From a bacterium (lineage in GTDB: Bacteria; UBP18; UBA7526), in the NCBI GenBank assembly GCA_030619985.1, contig JAUXAI010000052.1, forward strand, positions 1-8,675: DNA of 8,675 bases, in the 5' to 3' direction. A program made the translations under genes and the position numbers. The notes beneath the pieces were generated by a model that was not told where the DNA came from, did no database searches, and saw only the letters and a program-made list of their open reading frames with translations. Of the stretch, positions 17 to 7,488 are shown piece by piece. Each line of letters begins with the position of its first letter. Within the stretch, counting starts at the first letter, position 1.

Positions 17-50
17 CACAAATCAATCGACGATCGTCTCTAAAATTGTG
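17..50. promoter_or_regulatory. Degenerate palindromic operator upstream of the PaaX-family gene
   Basis: This 34-bp site matches 29 of 34 positions of the perfect palindrome at 885-918. The left arm and centre (17-38) are identical; five mismatches fall in the right arm. Outer pairs cacaa/ttgtg and the centre gacga/tcgtc keep the dyad. A -10-like taaaat lies at 41-46 inside the right arm, without a convincing -35. It sits about 40 bp before the start codon at 89, where an autoregulatory repressor would bind. That the PaaX protein binds here is inference. Confidence 0.6.
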
Positions 51-88
51 CAAAGGGATAGAAAAAACTCTTCTACGGGAGGTGAGGA

Positions 89-880
89 ATGAAAGGACGA
101 GTCTCTACCACAAAGATTATCCTTTCTCTTTTGGACGATGCCCTCAAACTTCGTAGAGATCCCATGACTTTTCTTTTGGAAGAGATGGGGAAAACGGCGC
201 GTGCTGTCCAGGTGGCACTCACCAGACTTGAGAAAAAGGGCCAGATCAAGAAGGTGAATCAGAAGGAAGGAGTCTTCTTCTCTCTGACAGATGAGGGGAG
301 GGCCCAGATTCCGGACAGTCCCCATAGGCTGAAGAGAAAAAAGCGGAGATGGGATGGGAAATGGTATCTGGTGAGCTTTGATATCCCGGAGAAGAATAGA
401 AGGATGAGGAACCTCTTCAGGCGATATCTGGTCAGCCTGGGATGTGGAAGGATGCAAAAGAGCCTTTGGATATCGCCTTACAATCTTTCTCGAAGAATAC
501 AATCCATGATTAACGAAATGGGCCTGGAGAAGTATGTGGAGACCTTCTCCGCCCAACATCTGGGAGCGAGTAATAGCAGAACCTTAGCCTCCTGGATCTG
601 GAGACTGGAGGAATTTAATAGACGCTACTCTGAATTTATAGGCCGTTATAATCCTCTACTTTCCAGATTGAGAAGGGAGGCGAGCGCCAAAGGCCAAGAG
701 ATGGGACTTCTGCGTCTCAAGAGAAGAATAGAGAAAGATCTGGCCCAGATCTTAAGGAACGATCCTCAGCTCCCCAATGATCTCTTGCCTTCCGATTGGA
801 GGGGAGAGAAGGCCTATCAACTCTTTGAAGAATACTATGATTTAGTTCTTTTAAGGATCAGCTCGAGGAGAGGAAAATAG
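89..880 (+). CDS. PaaX-family transcriptional regulator
   Basis: A 263-residue protein with the three-part PaaX layout: an N-terminal winged helix (about residues 8-75, with ARAVQVALTRLEKKGQI as recognition region), a Cas2-like ferredoxin-fold middle domain (about 88-160, including KWYLVSFDIPEKNRRMRNLF and SLWISPY), and a C-terminal PaaX_C region ending in DPQLPNDLLPSDWRGEKAY. E. coli PaaX represses phenylacetate degradation and responds to phenylacetyl-CoA. No such pathway is visible here, so the ligand and regulon are unknown. The ATG at 89 has GGAGGT at 78-83. The gene is bracketed by two copies of one palindrome (17-50, 885-918), which suggests autoregulation. It is convergent with the ABC exporter genes, ending about 60 bp from the permease stop. 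The family call is firm; the regulated target is not determinable. Confidence 0.88.
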   Translation: MKGRVSTTKIILSLLDDALKLRRDPMTFLLEEMGKTARAVQVALTRLEKKGQIKKVNQKEGVFFSLTDEGRAQIPDSPHRLKRKKRRWDGKWYLVSFDIPEKNRRMRNLFRRYLVSLGCGRMQKSLWISPYNLSRRIQSMINEMGLEKYVETFSAQHLGASNSRTLASWIWRLEEFNRRYSEFIGRYNPLLSRLRREASAKGQEMGLLRLKRRIEKDLAQILRNDPQLPNDLLPSDWRGEKAYQLFEEYYDLVLLRISSRRGK

Positions 881-884
881 ATTG

Positions 885-918
885 CACAAATCAATCGACG
901 ATCGTCGATTGATTTGTG
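885..918. repeat. Perfect 34-bp palindrome after the PaaX-family gene
   Basis: The first 17 bases (cacaaatcaatcgacga) are followed directly by their exact reverse complement, with no loop. The first 22 bases are identical to 17-38 upstream of the gene. It starts four bases after the PaaX stop codon. No T-run follows on either strand, so it is a poor intrinsic terminator. A second operator for the same dimeric repressor, or a repeat family member, fits better. It lies between two convergent genes. Confidence 0.85.
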
Positions 919-941
919 TGAGAAGGGAAATAAAAGGGGGA

Positions 942-1751
942 TCAGTATTGAATGAGGCTTCCGTCCCTCTTTGCTTTTTTGATGGCATAGTTAAAGACCA
1001 GGATGCCTAAGGGGAGCAGGATAACGGAGAAGATGGCCAGGGCTATGATATTGGGTAATAAAGCTCCCCAGCTGGGGTCTCCTAATAGGGAATTTCTTAT
1101 ACCCCTTAAGGAGTAGGTGATAGGCAGAAGATGGGAGAATTTTTGGAGGGGCGGGGGAAGGATGGAGATGGGGTAGTAGACCCCGCCTAAGAGGATGGAG
1201 AGGGTGGTGAAGAGCCAGGTTATGGGGTTCCCCCTCTTGAAGACGATGATGAAGCCAGCAGCGATAATACCAAGGCTGCTAAAAGAGATAATGGTTAGGA
1301 TAAGGATGATGAAGGCGGGAAGGAGGTGAGTGAGGTTCAAACTCACCTTAAATAGAAAGATGCCGAGCAGAAGATAGACTAAGACATTTAAGGAGGTGCG
1401 AATGAAGCTCCAGAGGGAGAGGGAGACGACCAATACGCTTATCTTAGTGGGGGTGAGGAGCATGGCCTCTAAGGTGCCCATCATCTGTTCCCTTCTTATG
1501 CTACCTGAGAAGCTCTGTAGTCCCACTCCCAGATAGGTGGAGAAGGCCAATCCAATTAGGACAAAGGGGAAGTATTCCCCTCCATAATCTTTGAGATAGG
1601 GGGCAGCGCTCTCCCCAAATAGCTTAGAGATGAAGAAGAAGGTGACCACCCAGAAGAGGATGCTGAAGAGGTTGAGCAGGAAGGAGAAACGATAGCTTAT
1701 CTCAACAAGGAAGTCTCTTTTAATGAAGGCTAAGGGCTTTCTTAGAAACAA
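942..1751 (-). CDS. ABC-2 type transporter permease
   Basis: A 269-residue integral membrane protein with about six hydrophobic segments: around residues 20-42, 60-78, 105-135, 140-172, 180-200 and 235-258. It carries the ABC-2 hallmark stretch between segments 2 and 3 (SGSIRREQMMGTLEAMLLTP) and a conserved GGVYYPISILP loop before a late helix. It would form the membrane channel, probably as a homodimer, of an exporter powered by the ATPase encoded just upstream on the same strand (1820-2611). The start is TTG, with AGAGGT eight bases before it. No earlier in-frame ATG exists, and the next ATG would remove the first membrane segments. The substrate cannot be told from sequence; relatives export polysaccharides, drugs or lipids. 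The 68-bp gap to the ATPase gene holds repeats (1772-1815). Confidence 0.9.
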   Translation of the reverse strand: MFLRKPLAFIKRDFLVEISYRFSFLLNLFSILFWVVTFFFISKLFGESAAPYLKDYGGEYFPFVLIGLAFSTYLGVGLQSFSGSIRREQMMGTLEAMLLTPTKISVLVVSLSLWSFIRTSLNVLVYLLLGIFLFKVSLNLTHLLPAFIILILTIISFSSLGIIAAGFIIVFKRGNPITWLFTTLSILLGGVYYPISILPPPLQKFSHLLPITYSLRGIRNSLLGDPSWGALLPNIIALAIFSVILLPLGILVFNYAIKKAKRDGSLIQY

Positions 1752-2737: not shown

Positions 2738-4156
2738 ATGGTTAAGGAAAAGAAAGAAAGAAAAGAGATGGGGATGGAAGAAGAGTTAAGAAAGTATCGA
2801 TTGATAGTGGAGTCTGCTCAGGATGCCATATTTGTAAAGGATTTGGATAGCCACTATACTCTGGTTAATCAAAAGTGCTTAGAGGCATTTGGCAAGTCAA
2901 AGCAAGAGGAGGTCCTGGGCAAGAGGGATGATGAGCTCCTGCCTCCAAAAGAGGCTAAAATAAATATTGAGCACGACCAAAAAGTTTTTAAAACTGGCAA
3001 ACTTAAAGAGGTAACTAAGAAAATGACCGCTGGAGGGAAAGAGCGTTGGTTTCAGGCAAAAAAGGTTCCTCTGCGAGATAATCAAGGGGAAATTATTGGT
3101 CTCATTGGCGTCGCCCGAGACATCACGGAGCGCAAGAAGGCGGAGGAGGTACTGCGGGAGAACGCGGAGAAATTCAGGGTCCTTGCAGAAGAGTCGCCAA
3201 ACATGATTTATATCAACCAGAAGGGCAGGGTAGTGTATGCCAATAAGAAATGCGCAGAGGTTATGGGATACAAAAGGGATGAATTCTATTCCCCCAATTT
3301 TGACTTTCTGACCCTTATCGCACCAGAATATAGAGACTTGGTAAAGTCAGGTTTCAGCAAGCATATGAAGGGTGAGGAGGTCAAGCCATACGAATATGCC
3401 CTTATCACCAAAGAAGGTAAAAGAATCGATGCAATACACTTGACAAAATTGATAAGATATGGGGGAGAGAGCGCCCTCCTTGGAATAATAACTGACATCA
3501 CCGAGCGGAAAAGGGTGGAGGAAAGGGTAAAGGAGTCAGAGAGGAAATATAGGGACATGGTAGAGGTTACTACCGATTGGGTATGGGAAGTTGATAAAGA
3601 TGGAATGTATACCTATGTCAGTCCCAAAGTCAAGGACATCTTGGGTTACGAAGTCGATGAAGTAATTGGCAAGACCCCCTTTGATCTGATGCCAAAGGAT
3701 GAGGCAAAGAAGATATTAAGATTCTTCCGAGAGAAAGCAATTAAGAAAGAACCCTTCTTTGGATTAGAGAATATAAATAGGCATAAGGAGGGACATTTAG
3801 TAATACTAGAGACAAGTAGCATACCAATATTGGATAAAAGAGGAGAACTGATTGGCTATCGAGGTATTGATAGAGACATCACCGAGCGCAAGAAGATGGA
3901 GAAGATGTTGTGGAAAACCGAAGAACAACATAAGAAAGCTATTGAAAATATTTTCAAATTTGTTCCAGAAAGTCTGTTAGTTTTTACAGATAAATTAGAC
4001 TTATATAAAAAAAATAAAGCTTTTCAGAACATTATTAAGAAATATTCTGCTAAGCTGAATTATACAGAACAAGAACTGGCAGAAATAATTATTAAAAAGG
4101 TAAAAAATAGAATAATCACCGGGAATAATACGGCAATCAGGGTTTCTAAAAAATAG
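2738..4156 (+). CDS. Multi-PAS sensor protein, N-terminal part of a split histidine kinase
   Basis: A 472-residue soluble protein with three complete PAS/PAC domains (about 18-133, 145-258 and 268-385), each ending in a DITERK motif at 128, 253 and 380. Then comes the first half of a fourth PAS (about 400-470: FKFVPESLLVFTDKLDLYKKNKAFQ... helix-rich part). No membrane segment or signal peptide is seen, and there is no kinase domain. The fourth PAS stops after its helices, and its missing last strands plus a DITERK motif open the next kinase gene at 5189 in the same frame register. I infer that the two were one PAS-kinase gene, now split by the insert at 4154-5188. The first three domains keep moderate GC, but from about 3930 on the DNA becomes AT-rich. 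ATG 2738 has AGAGAGG (2726-2732). Ligands are unknown. Confidence 0.88.
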   Translation: MVKEKKERKEMGMEEELRKYRLIVESAQDAIFVKDLDSHYTLVNQKCLEAFGKSKQEEVLGKRDDELLPPKEAKINIEHDQKVFKTGKLKEVTKKMTAGGKERWFQAKKVPLRDNQGEIIGLIGVARDITERKKAEEVLRENAEKFRVLAEESPNMIYINQKGRVVYANKKCAEVMGYKRDEFYSPNFDFLTLIAPEYRDLVKSGFSKHMKGEEVKPYEYALITKEGKRIDAIHLTKLIRYGGESALLGIITDITERKRVEERVKESERKYRDMVEVTTDWVWEVDKDGMYTYVSPKVKDILGYEVDEVIGKTPFDLMPKDEAKKILRFFREKAIKKEPFFGLENINRHKEGHLVILETSSIPILDKRGELIGYRGIDRDITERKKMEKMLWKTEEQHKKAIENIFKFVPESLLVFTDKLDLYKKNKAFQNIIKKYSAKLNYTEQELAEIIIKKVKNRIITGNNTAIRVSKK

Positions 4157-4158
4157 GC

Positions 4159-4317
4159 GTGAGGAAGGAACAAATAGGCAAAATAATTTTTAGTAAAGTA
4201 TTGGAGATGCCCTTAGCAAAGTATCTCATCTATGTTGAGAAAATAATAGAGGGAACAATAAAGCCTTTTTCAACCCACAAGTCTGTAAAAAAAAATTATT
4301 TTATGCTAAAACAATGA
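4159..4317 (+). CDS. Small ORF, probable displaced N-terminus of the sigma-54/GIY-YIG protein
   Basis: A 52-codon frame from GTG 4159 (ATG alternative at 4207), including KIIFSKVLEMPLAKYLIYV and KPFSTHKSVKKNYFML. Its TGA (4315-4317) overlaps the ATG of the next frame (4314) as ATGA. No clear ribosome binding site precedes it. The segment before the stop resembles, weakly, the part of sigma-54 that precedes the DNA-binding region, where the following ORF picks up with IKDGTLCFEV. A one-base shift at the A9 run (4287-4295) or the AAAA at 4308-4311 would join the two frames. So this is either a translationally coupled partner, a slippage-expressed N-terminus, or the broken start of a decaying gene. 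Identification is tentative. Confidence 0.4.
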   Translation: MRKEQIGKIIFSKVLEMPLAKYLIYVEKIIEGTIKPFSTHKSVKKNYFMLKQ

Positions 4318-5186
4318 TTAAAGATGGAACTCTATGTTTCGAGGTTTCAGATAAACGCTTAGAAAATATCTATTCGACTCAAAATTGTACTGAGAATAAA
4401 ATAATATGTTCATTGAAATGGATTAACACCAGAAATAAATTTTCTCTACATATTTTAAAAAGCCTCTTTCGTTATCAAAATAAATATTGGTTTTCTGGCA
4501 AAGAGACAGATCTAAAACCTTTGACCTTAAAACAATTCTTATTCTTATACCCACTAAAATATCTTGATCAAACTCGACTTTCAAGGTTAATTTCAAATTT
4601 ATTGGTTATGAATCCTCAAAATTGGGTTATTAATCTTAAAAGTTTATTTATATCAAAGAAAAAATATCACTCATACCTTGTTAAAGAATTAGTTAGGGGT
4701 AACGAAGATGCCTTGAAAGATAAGGAGATTCAACGCCTATTAGCTCAAAAAGGAGTATATTTATCCCTTAGAACGATATGTAATTGCAGAAAATTGCTTA
4801 ATATCCCTAACTATAAGGAAAGAACCACTTATTGTTATGAAAAGGATATAACTTTTAGTGATTACATGATGTTATTAAAAAAATATTTAAATAAAATTCC
4901 AACTGAAACTGGAACTTATGAATTAAGCATTTCATCAAAAATTAATTACCTGAACTACAAAAGTAATGTTCTATATATAGGTTCTTCCAAAAATCTGCGA
5001 AAGCGGATAACAAACTATTTTGGTAATAAATTAAAAAATAATCGTTTGAGTAAATTTATCAATAATTACGATGTATTCTTGCGTTTTTGTCTAAACCAAA
5101 ATTACATCTTAGTAGAAAAAAAGCTCCTTAAGAATTTTAAGAACATTTATGGAGAGTTACCAAAGGCTAACAGTTTAGGAGGATAA
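4314..5186 (+). CDS. Sigma-54-like DNA-binding region fused to a GIY-YIG endonuclease
   Basis: A 290-residue protein with two recognisable parts. Residues about 1-170 follow the C-terminal third of sigma-54 (RpoN) step by step: SLKWINTRN (33-41) matches AKWLIKSLESRN, LKPLTLKQF (67-75) matches the start of the HTH region, and SRLISNLLVMNPQNWVINLK (90-109) matches SRVTTQKYLHSPRGIFELK. LVKELVRGNED and QRLLAQKGV match the stretch leading to the RpoN box, which here reads SLRTICNCRK (151-160) instead of ARRTVAKYRE. Residues about 198-290 are a GIY-YIG nuclease: GTY (200-202), YIG (221-223), arginines 229/231, probable catalytic E268 and N286. Activator-contacting region I and most of the core-binding domain are absent, so it is not a working sigma factor. 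I infer that the HTH steers the nuclease to a site. The ATG lacks a good ribosome site and overlaps the upstream TGA. Confidence 0.78.
   Translation: MIKDGTLCFEVSDKRLENIYSTQNCTENKIICSLKWINTRNKFSLHILKSLFRYQNKYWFSGKETDLKPLTLKQFLFLYPLKYLDQTRLSRLISNLLVMNPQNWVINLKSLFISKKKYHSYLVKELVRGNEDALKDKEIQRLLAQKGVYLSLRTICNCRKLLNIPNYKERTTYCYEKDITFSDYMMLLKKYLNKIPTETGTYELSISSKINYLNYKSNVLYIGSSKNLRKRITNYFGNKLKNNRLSKFINNYDVFLRFCLNQNYILVEKKLLKNFKNIYGELPKANSLGG
5177..5182 (+). promoter_or_regulatory. Ribosome binding site for the kinase half, inside the endonuclease ORF
   Basis: AGGAGG lies within the last glycine codons of the endonuclease gene, six bases before ATG 5189. It fixes the start of the kinase half. It also shows that the insert, not the original gene, provides the translation signal for the downstream half of the split kinase. 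Confidence 0.8.
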
Positions 5187-5188
5187 TT

Positions 5189-6097
5189 ATGGAAAAGAAT
5201 CCAGAAAAAACAGGAGAACTTATTTTGCAATTTGACTCAGCAAGAATATTTTTTGCAGAAGAAGAAGAAGAAGAAGAAGCCAGAACTGTTGTATCGCTTA
5301 AAGACATCACGGAGCGTAAGAAACTTGAGAGAGAACTCATCCAATCCAGCAAGTTAGCCGCCATTGGACAGTTGGCGGGAGGAATTGCCCATGAATTGAA
5401 TAATCCCTTAGTAGGGGTCTTGAATTTCTCCCAACTTCTGCGGGAAAGGATGAAAAAGGACGATCCTAACTCAGAGTATGTGAAGATGATTGAGAGGGGA
5501 GCCTTGCAGTGCCAGAGGATTGTAAGGGGTCTTTTGACTTTCTCGCGTCAAGATAGAGAACCCTTCCAGCCCACAGATGTAAATAAGAGTATCCAAGAGG
5601 CCTTGCTTCTGGCGGAAACTCAAATAAAACTTCAGAAGATAAAGGTAGAGTGCCATTTCGACTCTAATTTACCAAAGATAATGGGAAGCGCCAATCAGCT
5701 GCAACAGATGGCTTTAAATATGATTATCAATGCCCGAGATGCCATGCCCCAAGGAGGGAGCCTGACAATTATCACCAGACTTCGCAGTCAGGGATTAAAG
5801 AGGGGCTCCGCCCCAGCCTCCGGCTCGGAAAGCCTCCAGGCTCGGAGAGAGGGGGCTCTGCCCCGGAGGGAACTCATCGAAGTGATATTTCAAGATACAG
5901 GAGCAGGAATGACAAGGGAAGAAATGATTAGGGTCTTTGATCCCTTCTTTACTACTAAGAAAGCAGGCCGAGGAACGGGTTTGGGTCTGGCTATTAGTTA
6001 TGGAATTATAAAGAATCATGGAGGCGATATAAGGGTAGATAGTGAAAAAGGCAAAGGAACCACCTTTACCATTGTGCTTCCCGTGACAAAGAAATAA
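5189..6097 (+). CDS. Histidine kinase, C-terminal part of the split PAS kinase
   Basis: A 302-residue cytoplasmic kinase. It opens with the last strands of a PAS domain (GELILQFDSARIFF ... SLKDITERK, 9-44), complementing the half domain that ends the sensor gene at 4156. It then has a HisKA dimerisation helix with phospho-accepting H68 (AHELNNPL), an N box NMIINARDAM (177-186), G1 DTGAGM (236-241), F box FDPFFTTK (250-257) and G2 GRGTGLGLAI (260-269). All motifs needed for autophosphorylation are present. Two oddities: seven glutamates encoded by a GAA repeat (24-30), and about 24 extra residues (202-226) encoded by a GC-rich palindromic block between N and G1 boxes. Likely phospho-acceptor partners are the receivers encoded at 6667 and 7488. 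Start choice rests on AGGAGG at 5177-5182. Confidence 0.92.
   Translation: MEKNPEKTGELILQFDSARIFFAEEEEEEEARTVVSLKDITERKKLERELIQSSKLAAIGQLAGGIAHELNNPLVGVLNFSQLLRERMKKDDPNSEYVKMIERGALQCQRIVRGLLTFSRQDREPFQPTDVNKSIQEALLLAETQIKLQKIKVECHFDSNLPKIMGSANQLQQMALNMIINARDAMPQGGSLTIITRLRSQGLKRGSAPASGSESLQARREGALPRRELIEVIFQDTGAGMTREEMIRVFDPFFTTKKAGRGTGLGLAISYGIIKNHGGDIRVDSEKGKGTTFTIVLPVTKK
5258..5278 (+). repeat. (GAA)7 trinucleotide tract in the kinase half
   Basis: Seven perfect GAA codons in a row encode E24-E30, in a loop between the late strands of the split PAS domain. Length changes by slippage would add or remove glutamates without shifting frame. Confidence 0.9.
5802..5864 (+). repeat. GC-rich palindromic cluster inserted in frame in the kinase
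   Basis: Four small hairpins in 63 bases: ggggc-tcc-gcccc (5802-5814), agcc-tcc-ggct (5815-5825), agcct-cc-aggct (5831-5842) and ggggc-tct-gcccc (5852-5864). The two inner units are also direct repeats (gcctccggctcgga 5816-5829, gcctccaggctcgga 5832-5846). The outer two are near-identical and can pair with each other. It is far richer in GC than its surroundings and stays open in the kinase frame. It encodes about 24 residues, rich in G, S, A and R, between the N and G1 boxes, where kinases normally have a short turn. It resembles coding palindromic repeats in form; the family is not identified. Confidence 0.75.
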
Positions 6098-6099
6098 GC

Positions 6100-6117
6100 A
6101 CACAGATGATCACAGAT
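6100..6117 (+). repeat. Left terminal inverted repeat
   Basis: acacagatgatcacagat, the exact reverse complement of 6633-6650. Internally it holds two cacagat units with a 10-base period. It begins three bases after the kinase stop codon. Confidence 0.9.
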
Positions 6118-6180: not shown

Positions 6181-6606
6181 ATGGAAGGAAAAAAGAGAAT
6201 CACGAGCTTTAGAGATTTAGAGGTATACCAGAATACTTATAATGCTATGCTAATTGTGATGAAAGAAATTGTGCCTAAATTACCTGATAACGAAAAATAC
6301 GATTTAAAGGACCAATCGAGTCGTGCATGTAAAGCAATACCAAGATTAATAGCAGAAGGCTATGCTAAACGTCATCAAAAAGCAGGCTTTCAAAAATATA
6401 TCGATGACGCTATGGGTGAATGTAACGAGATGGTTGTTAGTTTAAGTCAGTGTAGAGATATTTATCCTACATATGTAAATGTAAAACGTTGCGATGAGTT
6501 AATTGATGTATATGATAAATCAGGAAGACAGCTTTATAAATTAGGTAACGCTTGGACAAATTTTAAAGACGATAGACGTAACCATAAGACGAAACGGGCA
6601 TCGTAA
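6181..6606 (+). CDS. Four-helix-bundle protein, 23S rRNA intervening-sequence protein (S23/IVP) family
   Basis: A 141-residue soluble, mostly helical protein. The N-terminal SFRDLEVYQNTYNAML is the family hallmark, followed by LKDQSSRACKAIPRLIAEGYAKR (helix 2 with the conserved AEG), FQKYIDDAMGECNEMVVSL (helix 3) and a last helix near 100-130. Members form pentamer-like bundles and are encoded in intervening sequences of 23S rRNA in Leptospira and Coxiella, and also at scattered chromosomal sites; their biochemical role is unsettled. Here there is no rRNA around it. Instead it sits inside inverted repeats (6100-6650) between a kinase and its regulator, and the right inner repeat arm covers its last codons. 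The ribosome site is weak. Codon use is more AT-rich than that of the kinase. The family call is strong; function is unknown. Confidence 0.88.
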   Translation: MEGKKRITSFRDLEVYQNTYNAMLIVMKEIVPKLPDNEKYDLKDQSSRACKAIPRLIAEGYAKRHQKAGFQKYIDDAMGECNEMVVSLSQCRDIYPTYVNVKRCDELIDVYDKSGRQLYKLGNAWTNFKDDRRNHKTKRAS

Positions 6607-6632: not shown

Positions 6633-6650
6633 ATCTGTGATCATCTGTGT
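6633..6650 (+). repeat. Right terminal inverted repeat
   Basis: atctgtgatcatctgtgt, the exact reverse complement of 6100-6117. It ends two bases before the AAGGGG that serves the response regulator gene. Confidence 0.9.
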
Positions 6651-6666: not shown

Positions 6667-7182
6667 ATGGCTAAGGCGAAGATATTAGTGGTAGATGACG
6701 AGGCCTATACCAGGGTCTTTTTCTATGAATTGTTAAAAGAAAAAGGATATAAGGTTAGCATTGTAGAGGATGGAAGAAGAGCAATTGAGACTGCGAAAAA
6801 AGGATCCTTTGATCTCGTTTTTTTGGATGTAAGAATGCCGGACATTGATGGGGTAGAGACCTGCAAAGCAATTAAGAAGACCAGTCCTAAGACGATCGTC
6901 ATTATGATGAGCGGCTACCCGGTTGAAGATGAGGTGAGAGAGGCGCTAAAATTGGGTGCCTCTGATTATGTTGCCAAGCCATTTAATCCAGATGAGATAA
7001 TGGGTATTACCCAGGTGGCTGAATATCTCAATATCCATAGGATGACCCTTTATGACTTAGTCCGAACGAGAAAAATTCCGGCCTTCAAAGTGGGCGGCCA
7101 GTGGCGCTTCAGAAAGGAGTTATTGGAGAAGTGGATTACTACTGAGACTAAGAGGCGGGAGAAGCATTCTAATAAGAAATAA
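6667..7182 (+). CDS. Response regulator: receiver domain fused to an HTH_17 DNA-binding domain
   Basis: A 171-residue protein. The receiver (about 1-112) has D10/D11, phospho-accepting D54 (FLDVRMP), S82 and K104 (KPF), so it should accept phosphate from the kinase encoded upstream. It is cut short at DEIM (109-112), where helix alpha-5 should begin, and continues directly into an excisionase/MerR-like winged helix (113-158; TQVAEYLNIHRMTLYDLV, then KIPAFKVGGQWRFRK). The HTH is closely related to the stand-alone protein encoded at 7294. The likely role is phosphorylation-controlled DNA binding. ATG 6667 has AAGGGG at 6653-6658. It would adjoin the kinase gene if the 551-bp element were absent. 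Missing alpha-5 is unusual, because that face usually makes receiver dimers. Confidence 0.9.
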   Translation: MAKAKILVVDDEAYTRVFFYELLKEKGYKVSIVEDGRRAIETAKKGSFDLVFLDVRMPDIDGVETCKAIKKTSPKTIVIMMSGYPVEDEVREALKLGASDYVAKPFNPDEIMGITQVAEYLNIHRMTLYDLVRTRKIPAFKVGGQWRFRKELLEKWITTETKRREKHSNKK

Positions 7183-7293: not shown

Positions 7294-7488
7294 ATGGCAG
7301 ATAAGATAATGACTGTTAAAGAGGTGGCTAAGTATTTAGATGTCCACCCTATGACCCTCTATAGGTTAGCCAGAGAAGGAAAGATCCCAGCCTTTAAGAT
7401 CGGTGGTCAATGGAGGTTCCAGAAAAAGGCCTTAGACAGATGGGTAGCCCAAAGCATGAATAAAAATTATAATTCTGAGGAGAAATAA
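7294..7488 (+). CDS. Stand-alone HTH_17 (excisionase/MerR-like) DNA-binding protein
   Basis: A 64-residue protein that is almost entirely one winged-helix module: IMTVKEVAKYLDVHPMTLYR is the helix-turn-helix and KIPAFKIGGQWRFQKKALDR the wing and last helix. It matches residues 110-157 of the response regulator encoded at 6667 at most positions, so the two probably bind related sites; the small one could compete or form mixed complexes. Proteins of this family act as excisionases or small transcription factors, but nothing nearby is an integrase. It has AGGAG just before its ATG. Its stop overlaps the next start (TAATG at 7486-7490), implying translational coupling to the HD-GYP gene. Confidence 0.85.
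   Translation: MADKIMTVKEVAKYLDVHPMTLYRLAREGKIPAFKIGGQWRFQKKALDRWVAQSMNKNYNSEEK

Follow-up and report, generated by a model that had tools for sequence, protein, structure and literature searches.

The free-standing GIY-YIG endonucleases of T-even phages, SegA-SegG, are associated with no intron or intein, may cut DNA hundreds to thousands of bp away from their own genes, and are translationally coupled to a neighboring gene (PMC2988022). An endonuclease gene of the free-standing kind can also interrupt a coding gene, as in the Aeromonas phage Aeh1, where mobE splits nrdA into 2 separately translated parts with coupling through UAAUGA-type stop/start signals (PMC2988022). Here we analyzed a stretch of bacterial DNA of 8,675 nucleotides (hereafter the window) in which a PAS-domain sensor kinase gene is split by a gene for a GIY-YIG nuclease that carries a DNA-binding region derived from the sigma factor RpoN (Table 1). 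Our literature searches found no such sigma-54/GIY-YIG fusion and no link between a nuclease and repeats described, and the word "sigma" is absent from a survey of the GIY-YIG superfamily (PMC1564403). A (GAA)7 tract downstream of the nuclease gene, missed by the first-pass annotation of this DNA, is the strongest clue to the function of the protein.

A sigma-54/GIY-YIG fusion within a sensor kinase gene

The first-pass annotation had read the nuclease ORF as the DNA-binding end of sigma-54 joined to a GIY-YIG nuclease, and profile searches bear this reading out. The Pfam Sigma54_DBD model (PF04552) matched the ORF with 42.6 bits (cut-off 22.8, E=6.6e-11) and the GIY-YIG model (PF01541) with 23.4 bits (cut-off 22.6, E=7.7e-5, residues 216-275). 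Because the first match covers positions 15-158 of the 160 in the profile, the proposed collinearity with the end of RpoN, through the HTH to the RpoN box, is borne out as well; the box is indeed altered, and its R153, T154, C156, and R159 are kept in close relatives. By phmmer against the PDB, the window protein matched Aquifex RpoN (5ui5, 3e-6). With a family profile this match rose to 2.9e-13, and the GIY-YIG domains of Endonuclease II and UvrC were matched at the other end. All catalytic residues named beforehand are present (GTY 200-202, YIG 221-223, R231, E268, and N286), with G200, Y202, Y221, G223, R231, E268, and N286 invariant across 9 relatives. The architecture recurs, since both Pfam models matched 8 of the 9 family members. 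An AlphaFold2 model of the window protein, built on a shallow alignment, had a pLDDT of 42. The NCBIfam rpoN_sigma model scored 38.7 bits, below its cut-off of 277, matching the C-terminal region only, and the profile matches leave the nuclease without region I and with no more than a remnant of the RNA-polymerase core-binding domain, which places the protein outside RpoN itself.

Table 1. Features of the nuclease locus, its neighborhood in the window, and a chimeric PAS gene of another genome.
Feature	Coordinates	Strand	Description and basis
Kinase N-terminal half	2738..4156	+	Three PAS domains and first half of a fourth, "PAS-B"; Pfam PAS_4/PAS_9
Probable N-terminal extension of nuclease	4159..4311	+	GTG 4159; frame change before main ORF
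Sigma54_DBD-GIY-YIG nuclease ORF	4314..5186	+	290 aa; Pfam, phmmer, family profile
Sigma-54 DNA-binding region	4413..4823	+	Residues 34-170; PF04552
Altered RpoN box SLRTICNCRK	4764..4793	+	Residues 151-160; sequence
GIY-YIG nuclease domain	4911..5171	+	Residues 200-286; PF01541 and invariant columns
Shine-Dalgarno GGAGG-like sequence	5179..5183	+	Within last nuclease codons (L-G-G-stop), ahead of the start ATG of the kinase C-terminal half
Kinase C-terminal half	5189..6097	+	End of PAS-B, HisKA, HATPase_c; Pfam
Sigma-54-site-like 16-mer AAGAATATTTTTTGCA	5242..5257	+	-12-like TTGCA at 5253-5257; -24-like GG degenerate
(GAA)7 tract	5258..5278	+	Polyglutamate in PAS-B hairpin; sole (GAA)7 of the assembled genome
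23S rRNA-intervening-sequence-type (four-helix) protein ORF	6181-6606		AT-rich; between kinase and response regulator
Perfect 18-bp inverted repeat ACACAGATGATCACAGAT	6100-6117 and 6633-6650		Flanks the four-helix protein ORF
Chimeric PAS ORF L113 (G421:C164)	23-1471		Joined at (GAA)8; Pfam match positions 4-73 of 113

The true start of the nuclease gene is probably near GTG 4159 and not at 4314, judging from the translation from that GTG (VRKEQIGKIIFSKVLEMPLAKYL...), which matches the in-frame N-termini of 5 relatives (L004, L005, L045, L007, and L008). The frames of the extension and the main ORF part at an A9 run (4287-4295), where a frame change is likewise implied in a 96%-identical relative. 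Since the extension is out of frame at this run, the window copy may have decayed or may be translated through slippage.

The 2 kinase halves share one frame and jointly form a kinase cut midway through a PAS domain, and the G+C content of the insert is 25-29% versus approximately 45% in the flanks. The same PAS-B position is split in the window and in 6 other loci or genomes (L003, L004, L005, G339, G601, and G610), and 5 more are split at equivalent PAS positions (G580, G602, G606, G073, and L088). Uninterrupted kinase homologues exist (L107, L108, and L110), so that the insertion has the fixed place and the empty counterparts of a homing endonuclease. At the junctions, stop and start signals are overlapping or almost adjacent (ATGA in L004, L007, and L045), an arrangement known from free-standing phage homing endonucleases in split genes, such as mobE in nrdA (PMC2988022), and the C-terminal (L/I)GG of the nuclease recurs in L003, L004, and L096. 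A group I intron or an intein was considered and rejected because no Rfam match (group I intron) was found at the nuclease, and the nuclease and the kinase halves have their own stops and starts. Comparison of the site in carrier alleles showed that TTGCA(GAA)n persists beside the insert, the sequence upstream of it being replaced. Whether other fusions also sit inside split genes had been proposed as a check, and not all of them do. In 4 cases the nuclease gene is upstream of the target gene instead: an intact EAL gene follows it on the plasmids pSTJ2 (Sulfuricystis) and pDCB1 (Diaphorobacter), a kinase ORF adjoins it in G026, and in G640 a sensor kinase lies 2 genes downstream.

Elsewhere in the window, the four-helix protein ORF with its inverted-repeat flanks resembles a small mobile cassette, and the ORF is also found in L003. 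A 34-bp repeat (17-50 and 885-918, 85% identical, largely palindromic) brackets a PaaX/Cas2-like regulator gene (89-880), and the same MerR/HTH_17-type DNA-binding module occurs twice (7294-7485 and 6997-7150) in neighboring genes, once as a small ORF of its own and once joined to a response-regulator receiver domain.

GAA tracts in PAS genes and the sequence at their edge

Each of the 15 loci whose nuclease is a close and undecayed relative has a tract of GAA codons in a PAS-domain gene. The tracts have 4-13 units, lie 65-2,400 bp downstream of the nuclease, and are pure at 14 of the 15 loci, the G580 tract being broken by one GCA. GAG is absent from every tract and accounts for 21-59% of the Glu codons in the rest of these ORFs, so that the tracts are DNA repeats and not merely selected polyglutamate. 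Polyglutamate kept by protein selection alone was rejected on 2 grounds: the tracts are GAA-only in loci of 58-64% GC, and the Leu codon before the tract is always CTT, even where CTT makes up 5-13% of Leu codons. Two PAS positions hold tracts, one in the hairpin that precedes the DIT motif and one in the loop that follows "..IFA" (structure inferred from the PAS fold), and their structural difference argues for targeting at the DNA level. In nuclease-free uninterrupted homologues, (GAA)2 or (GAA)3 is found at the same codons, and where the nuclease is decayed the tract is broken up (L005) or just (GAA)2 (G043). Repeat number differs by one unit between pSTJ2 and pDCB1 (7 versus 8) and between G606 and G602 (7 versus 6), and is 7 in both the window and G002. 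The carrier G601 has 4 tracts, 2 of which (8 and 10 units) are in genes without the nuclease; few genes speak for a possible tract expansion in trans. Genome-wide repeat instability in carriers was unsupported, there being one (GAA)7 each in the window genome (G000) and G002, and the two (GAA)7+ tracts of G026 being in the adjacent gene.

The bases before the tract end in TTGCA or TTGCG at 18 of the 21 sites. The full TGGCA-N6-TTG pattern with canonical spacing is found at the tracts of pSTJ2 and pDCB1 and at both G026 tracts; among 2,620 codon-register positions in three host ORFs it occurred 4 times, each time at a tract edge. The nucleases of these carriers have the RpoN boxes nearest to canonical (SRRTV and SRRSI). 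The window branch (S[L/V/I]RT[I/V]C box) has AAG where TGG is expected, and G580, G602, and G606 (SVRTICNY box) have TGG-AA. That box and site pattern may co-vary between branches is suggestive only. A full -24/-12 element was not found at every tract, and in an offset control the canonical position was only modestly elevated over all 21 sites. The first-pass annotation had taken the altered RpoN box to mean that the target might be something other than a -24/-12 promoter. The associated site does lie in coding DNA and not in a promoter; it is nevertheless still -24/-12-like, with a near-invariant TTGCR.

Association of nuclease and tract, and its possible explanations

In 245 genomes of one phylum, which is not that of the window, TTGCR(GAA)5 was present in 5 of the 6 nuclease-positive and 1 of the 239 nuclease-negative genomes (p=5e-9), and within the family holding 5 of those carriers the counts were 5/5 versus 0/11; most close cases come from one PAS family and are thus not fully independent, and the sample consists mostly of metagenome assemblies with few independent lineages. 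(GAA)7 occurred in 21 of 386 genomes, and inside PAS genes in 4 nuclease carriers and in G093 (p=8e-8), in which the nuclease was not detected. Two blind predictions came true. A search of viral contigs with the site only gave 7 matches, one of which (L088) turned out to be a PAS kinase that is split and has the nuclease immediately upstream, and a search with the nuclease only led to G640, whose downstream sensor kinase bears TTGCA(GAA)13. The lone nuclease-free genome with the site, G421, has PAS halves of 2 types joined exactly at (GAA)8. In G339, G601, and G073, 2 tracts flank the nuclease; deletion between them would yield a PAS like that of G421 and lose the nuclease, and the G421 chimera looks like the product of such a deletion.

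The fusion forms a small mobile family, about 18 relatives having been found in several phyla and on plasmids. Relatives put the genome of the window in Candidatus Stahlbacteria. In the nuclease tree, the window protein and L004 (Stahlbacteria) cluster with G601, G610, and G339 of another phylum, which together with the plasmid copies indicates horizontal spread apart from the host phylogeny. A distant relative is encoded on the plasmid pACLO (about 27% identity), which is free of GAA tracts. Phages as the main home were rejected, since tblastn gave no match in 50,697 phage records and protein scans of viral contigs gave none either, yet one contig of a viral collection (L088) carries the nuclease. 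A search of the window's assembly (1.25 Mb, 84% complete) gave no further Sigma54_DBD gene, so rpoN may be absent from G000, which has a nuclease derived from sigma-54. Besides the frame change in the window, decay is seen in L005 and L009/G043, in L007, where the RpoN box is deleted, and in L096/L095 (G601 and G610), where the DNA-binding and GIY-YIG parts are separate ORFs with the same break in both genomes. These decayed copies fit a homing life cycle.

We consider it probable that the protein is a free-standing homing-type nuclease, which its sigma-54 domain aims at GAA-edge sites in PAS genes and whose breaks, on repair, enlarge the tract in frame. Targeting of these sites is well supported by the sequence comparisons, from which binding, cleavage, repair-driven expansion, and homing are predicted. 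The sigma-54-derived domain would bind a -24/-12-like sequence (TTGCR and a -24-like G) that runs straight into the GAA codons, and the GIY-YIG domain would cut at or near the tract; the spacing of 65-2,400 bp fits with the distant cutting of free-standing enzymes (PMC2988022). Repair off a nuclease-bearing homologue would place a copy of the nuclease gene within the PAS gene or next to it. In the window this insertion would have split the kinase, the overlapping or nearby stop/start signals letting both halves be translated. Repair without a donor would add or remove whole GAA units by slippage or annealing within the repeat, keeping the polyglutamate in frame, and recombination between 2 tracts would delete the intervening DNA. 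Expansion is backed by the contrast between carriers and non-carriers and by the one-unit differences, and the nuclease may be its cause. Several observations count against parts of this scheme: classical homing insertions destroy their site, but here the tract beside the nuclease is intact; the window branch lacks the -24-like GG, and the G580 tract is imperfect; and pACLO has no tract, while G093 has a tract and no detected nuclease. The first-pass annotation had itself suggested a homing endonuclease with a borrowed sigma factor, and the fusion, the recurrent split site, the uninterrupted homologues, and the tree across phyla speak for it, its promoter claim having proved half right.

The main rival, possible but doubtful in our view, is a domesticated system in which the host keeps the nuclease to vary polyglutamate length or shuffle PAS modules and so tune signaling. 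The anatomy of the loci fits this reading as well as it fits homing. It would account for tracts that are in frame and pure, for plasmid genes that are similar but differ by one unit in tract length, for the several sensor genes of G601 that bear tracts, for the G421 chimera, which is truncated by Pfam, and for nucleases outside the target gene (pSTJ2, pDCB1, G026, and G640). However, frequent decay (L005, L009/G043, G601/G610, the window, and L007) and a patchy distribution suit a selfish element better. In its strongest form, a sigma-factor-guided nuclease would deliberately expand, contract, and recombine in-frame GAA tracts as programmed sensor diversification through polyglutamate length and domain shuffling, which has no described counterpart and which we regard as likewise doubtful.

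It is also unlikely that the nuclease homes to conserved PAS DNA while the GAA microsatellites, present beforehand and not its product, are bystanders or just part of its binding site. Seeds (TTTGCAGAAGAA) do occur without the nuclease, microsatellites grow by slippage unaided, and G093 has its tract with no nuclease detected; but nuclease-free relatives have almost no long tracts (0/11 within the one family), and tracts occur in unrelated PAS families and in genes that do not carry the nuclease. Finally, it is highly improbable that the protein acts in transcription, at promoters, as a competitor of sigma-54 or an anti-sigma-like regulator whose GIY-YIG domain is secondary: the full sigma-54 DNA-binding region is kept, but the protein lacks region I and almost the whole core-binding domain, the 84% complete assembly gave no further Sigma54_DBD gene, the catalytic residues are invariant, and the associated sites lie within coding DNA.

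Comparison with known systems

Read as a homing-type nuclease aimed at GAA-edge sites, the window protein differs from SegA-SegG in its sigma-54-derived DNA-binding part, its residence on bacterial chromosomes and plasmids, and its association with GAA repeats. With mobE it shares a free-standing endonuclease gene that splits a coding gene; mobE, however, encodes an HNH nuclease, interrupts a phage ribonucleotide reductase, and has no repeat tract. Like I-TevI and I-BmoI, the protein is modular, combining a GIY-YIG catalytic domain with a separate DNA-binding module, but the nuclease is N-terminal in those enzymes and C-terminal here, where no group I intron was found. It is collinear with the C-terminal region of RpoN through the HTH and the RpoN box, and its sites are -24/-12-like, whereas it lacks region I, keeps only a remnant of the core-binding part, has a changed RpoN box, and is fused to a nuclease. 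The tracts recall simple-sequence-repeat contingency loci in being pure short tandem repeats within coding genes, and differ from them in being trinucleotide, in frame, and tied to a dedicated nuclease gene. Among sigma-factor DNA-binding domains, this one appears to be the first to have been recruited to aim a nuclease, and its candidate sites are still sigma-54-like. The locus offers a natural bacterial case of a site-specific nuclease genetically tied to trinucleotide (GAA) tracts, and with it a model, simple and testable, for repeat expansion driven by a nuclease and for the way in which modules may be gained, lost, and fused in multi-PAS sensors.
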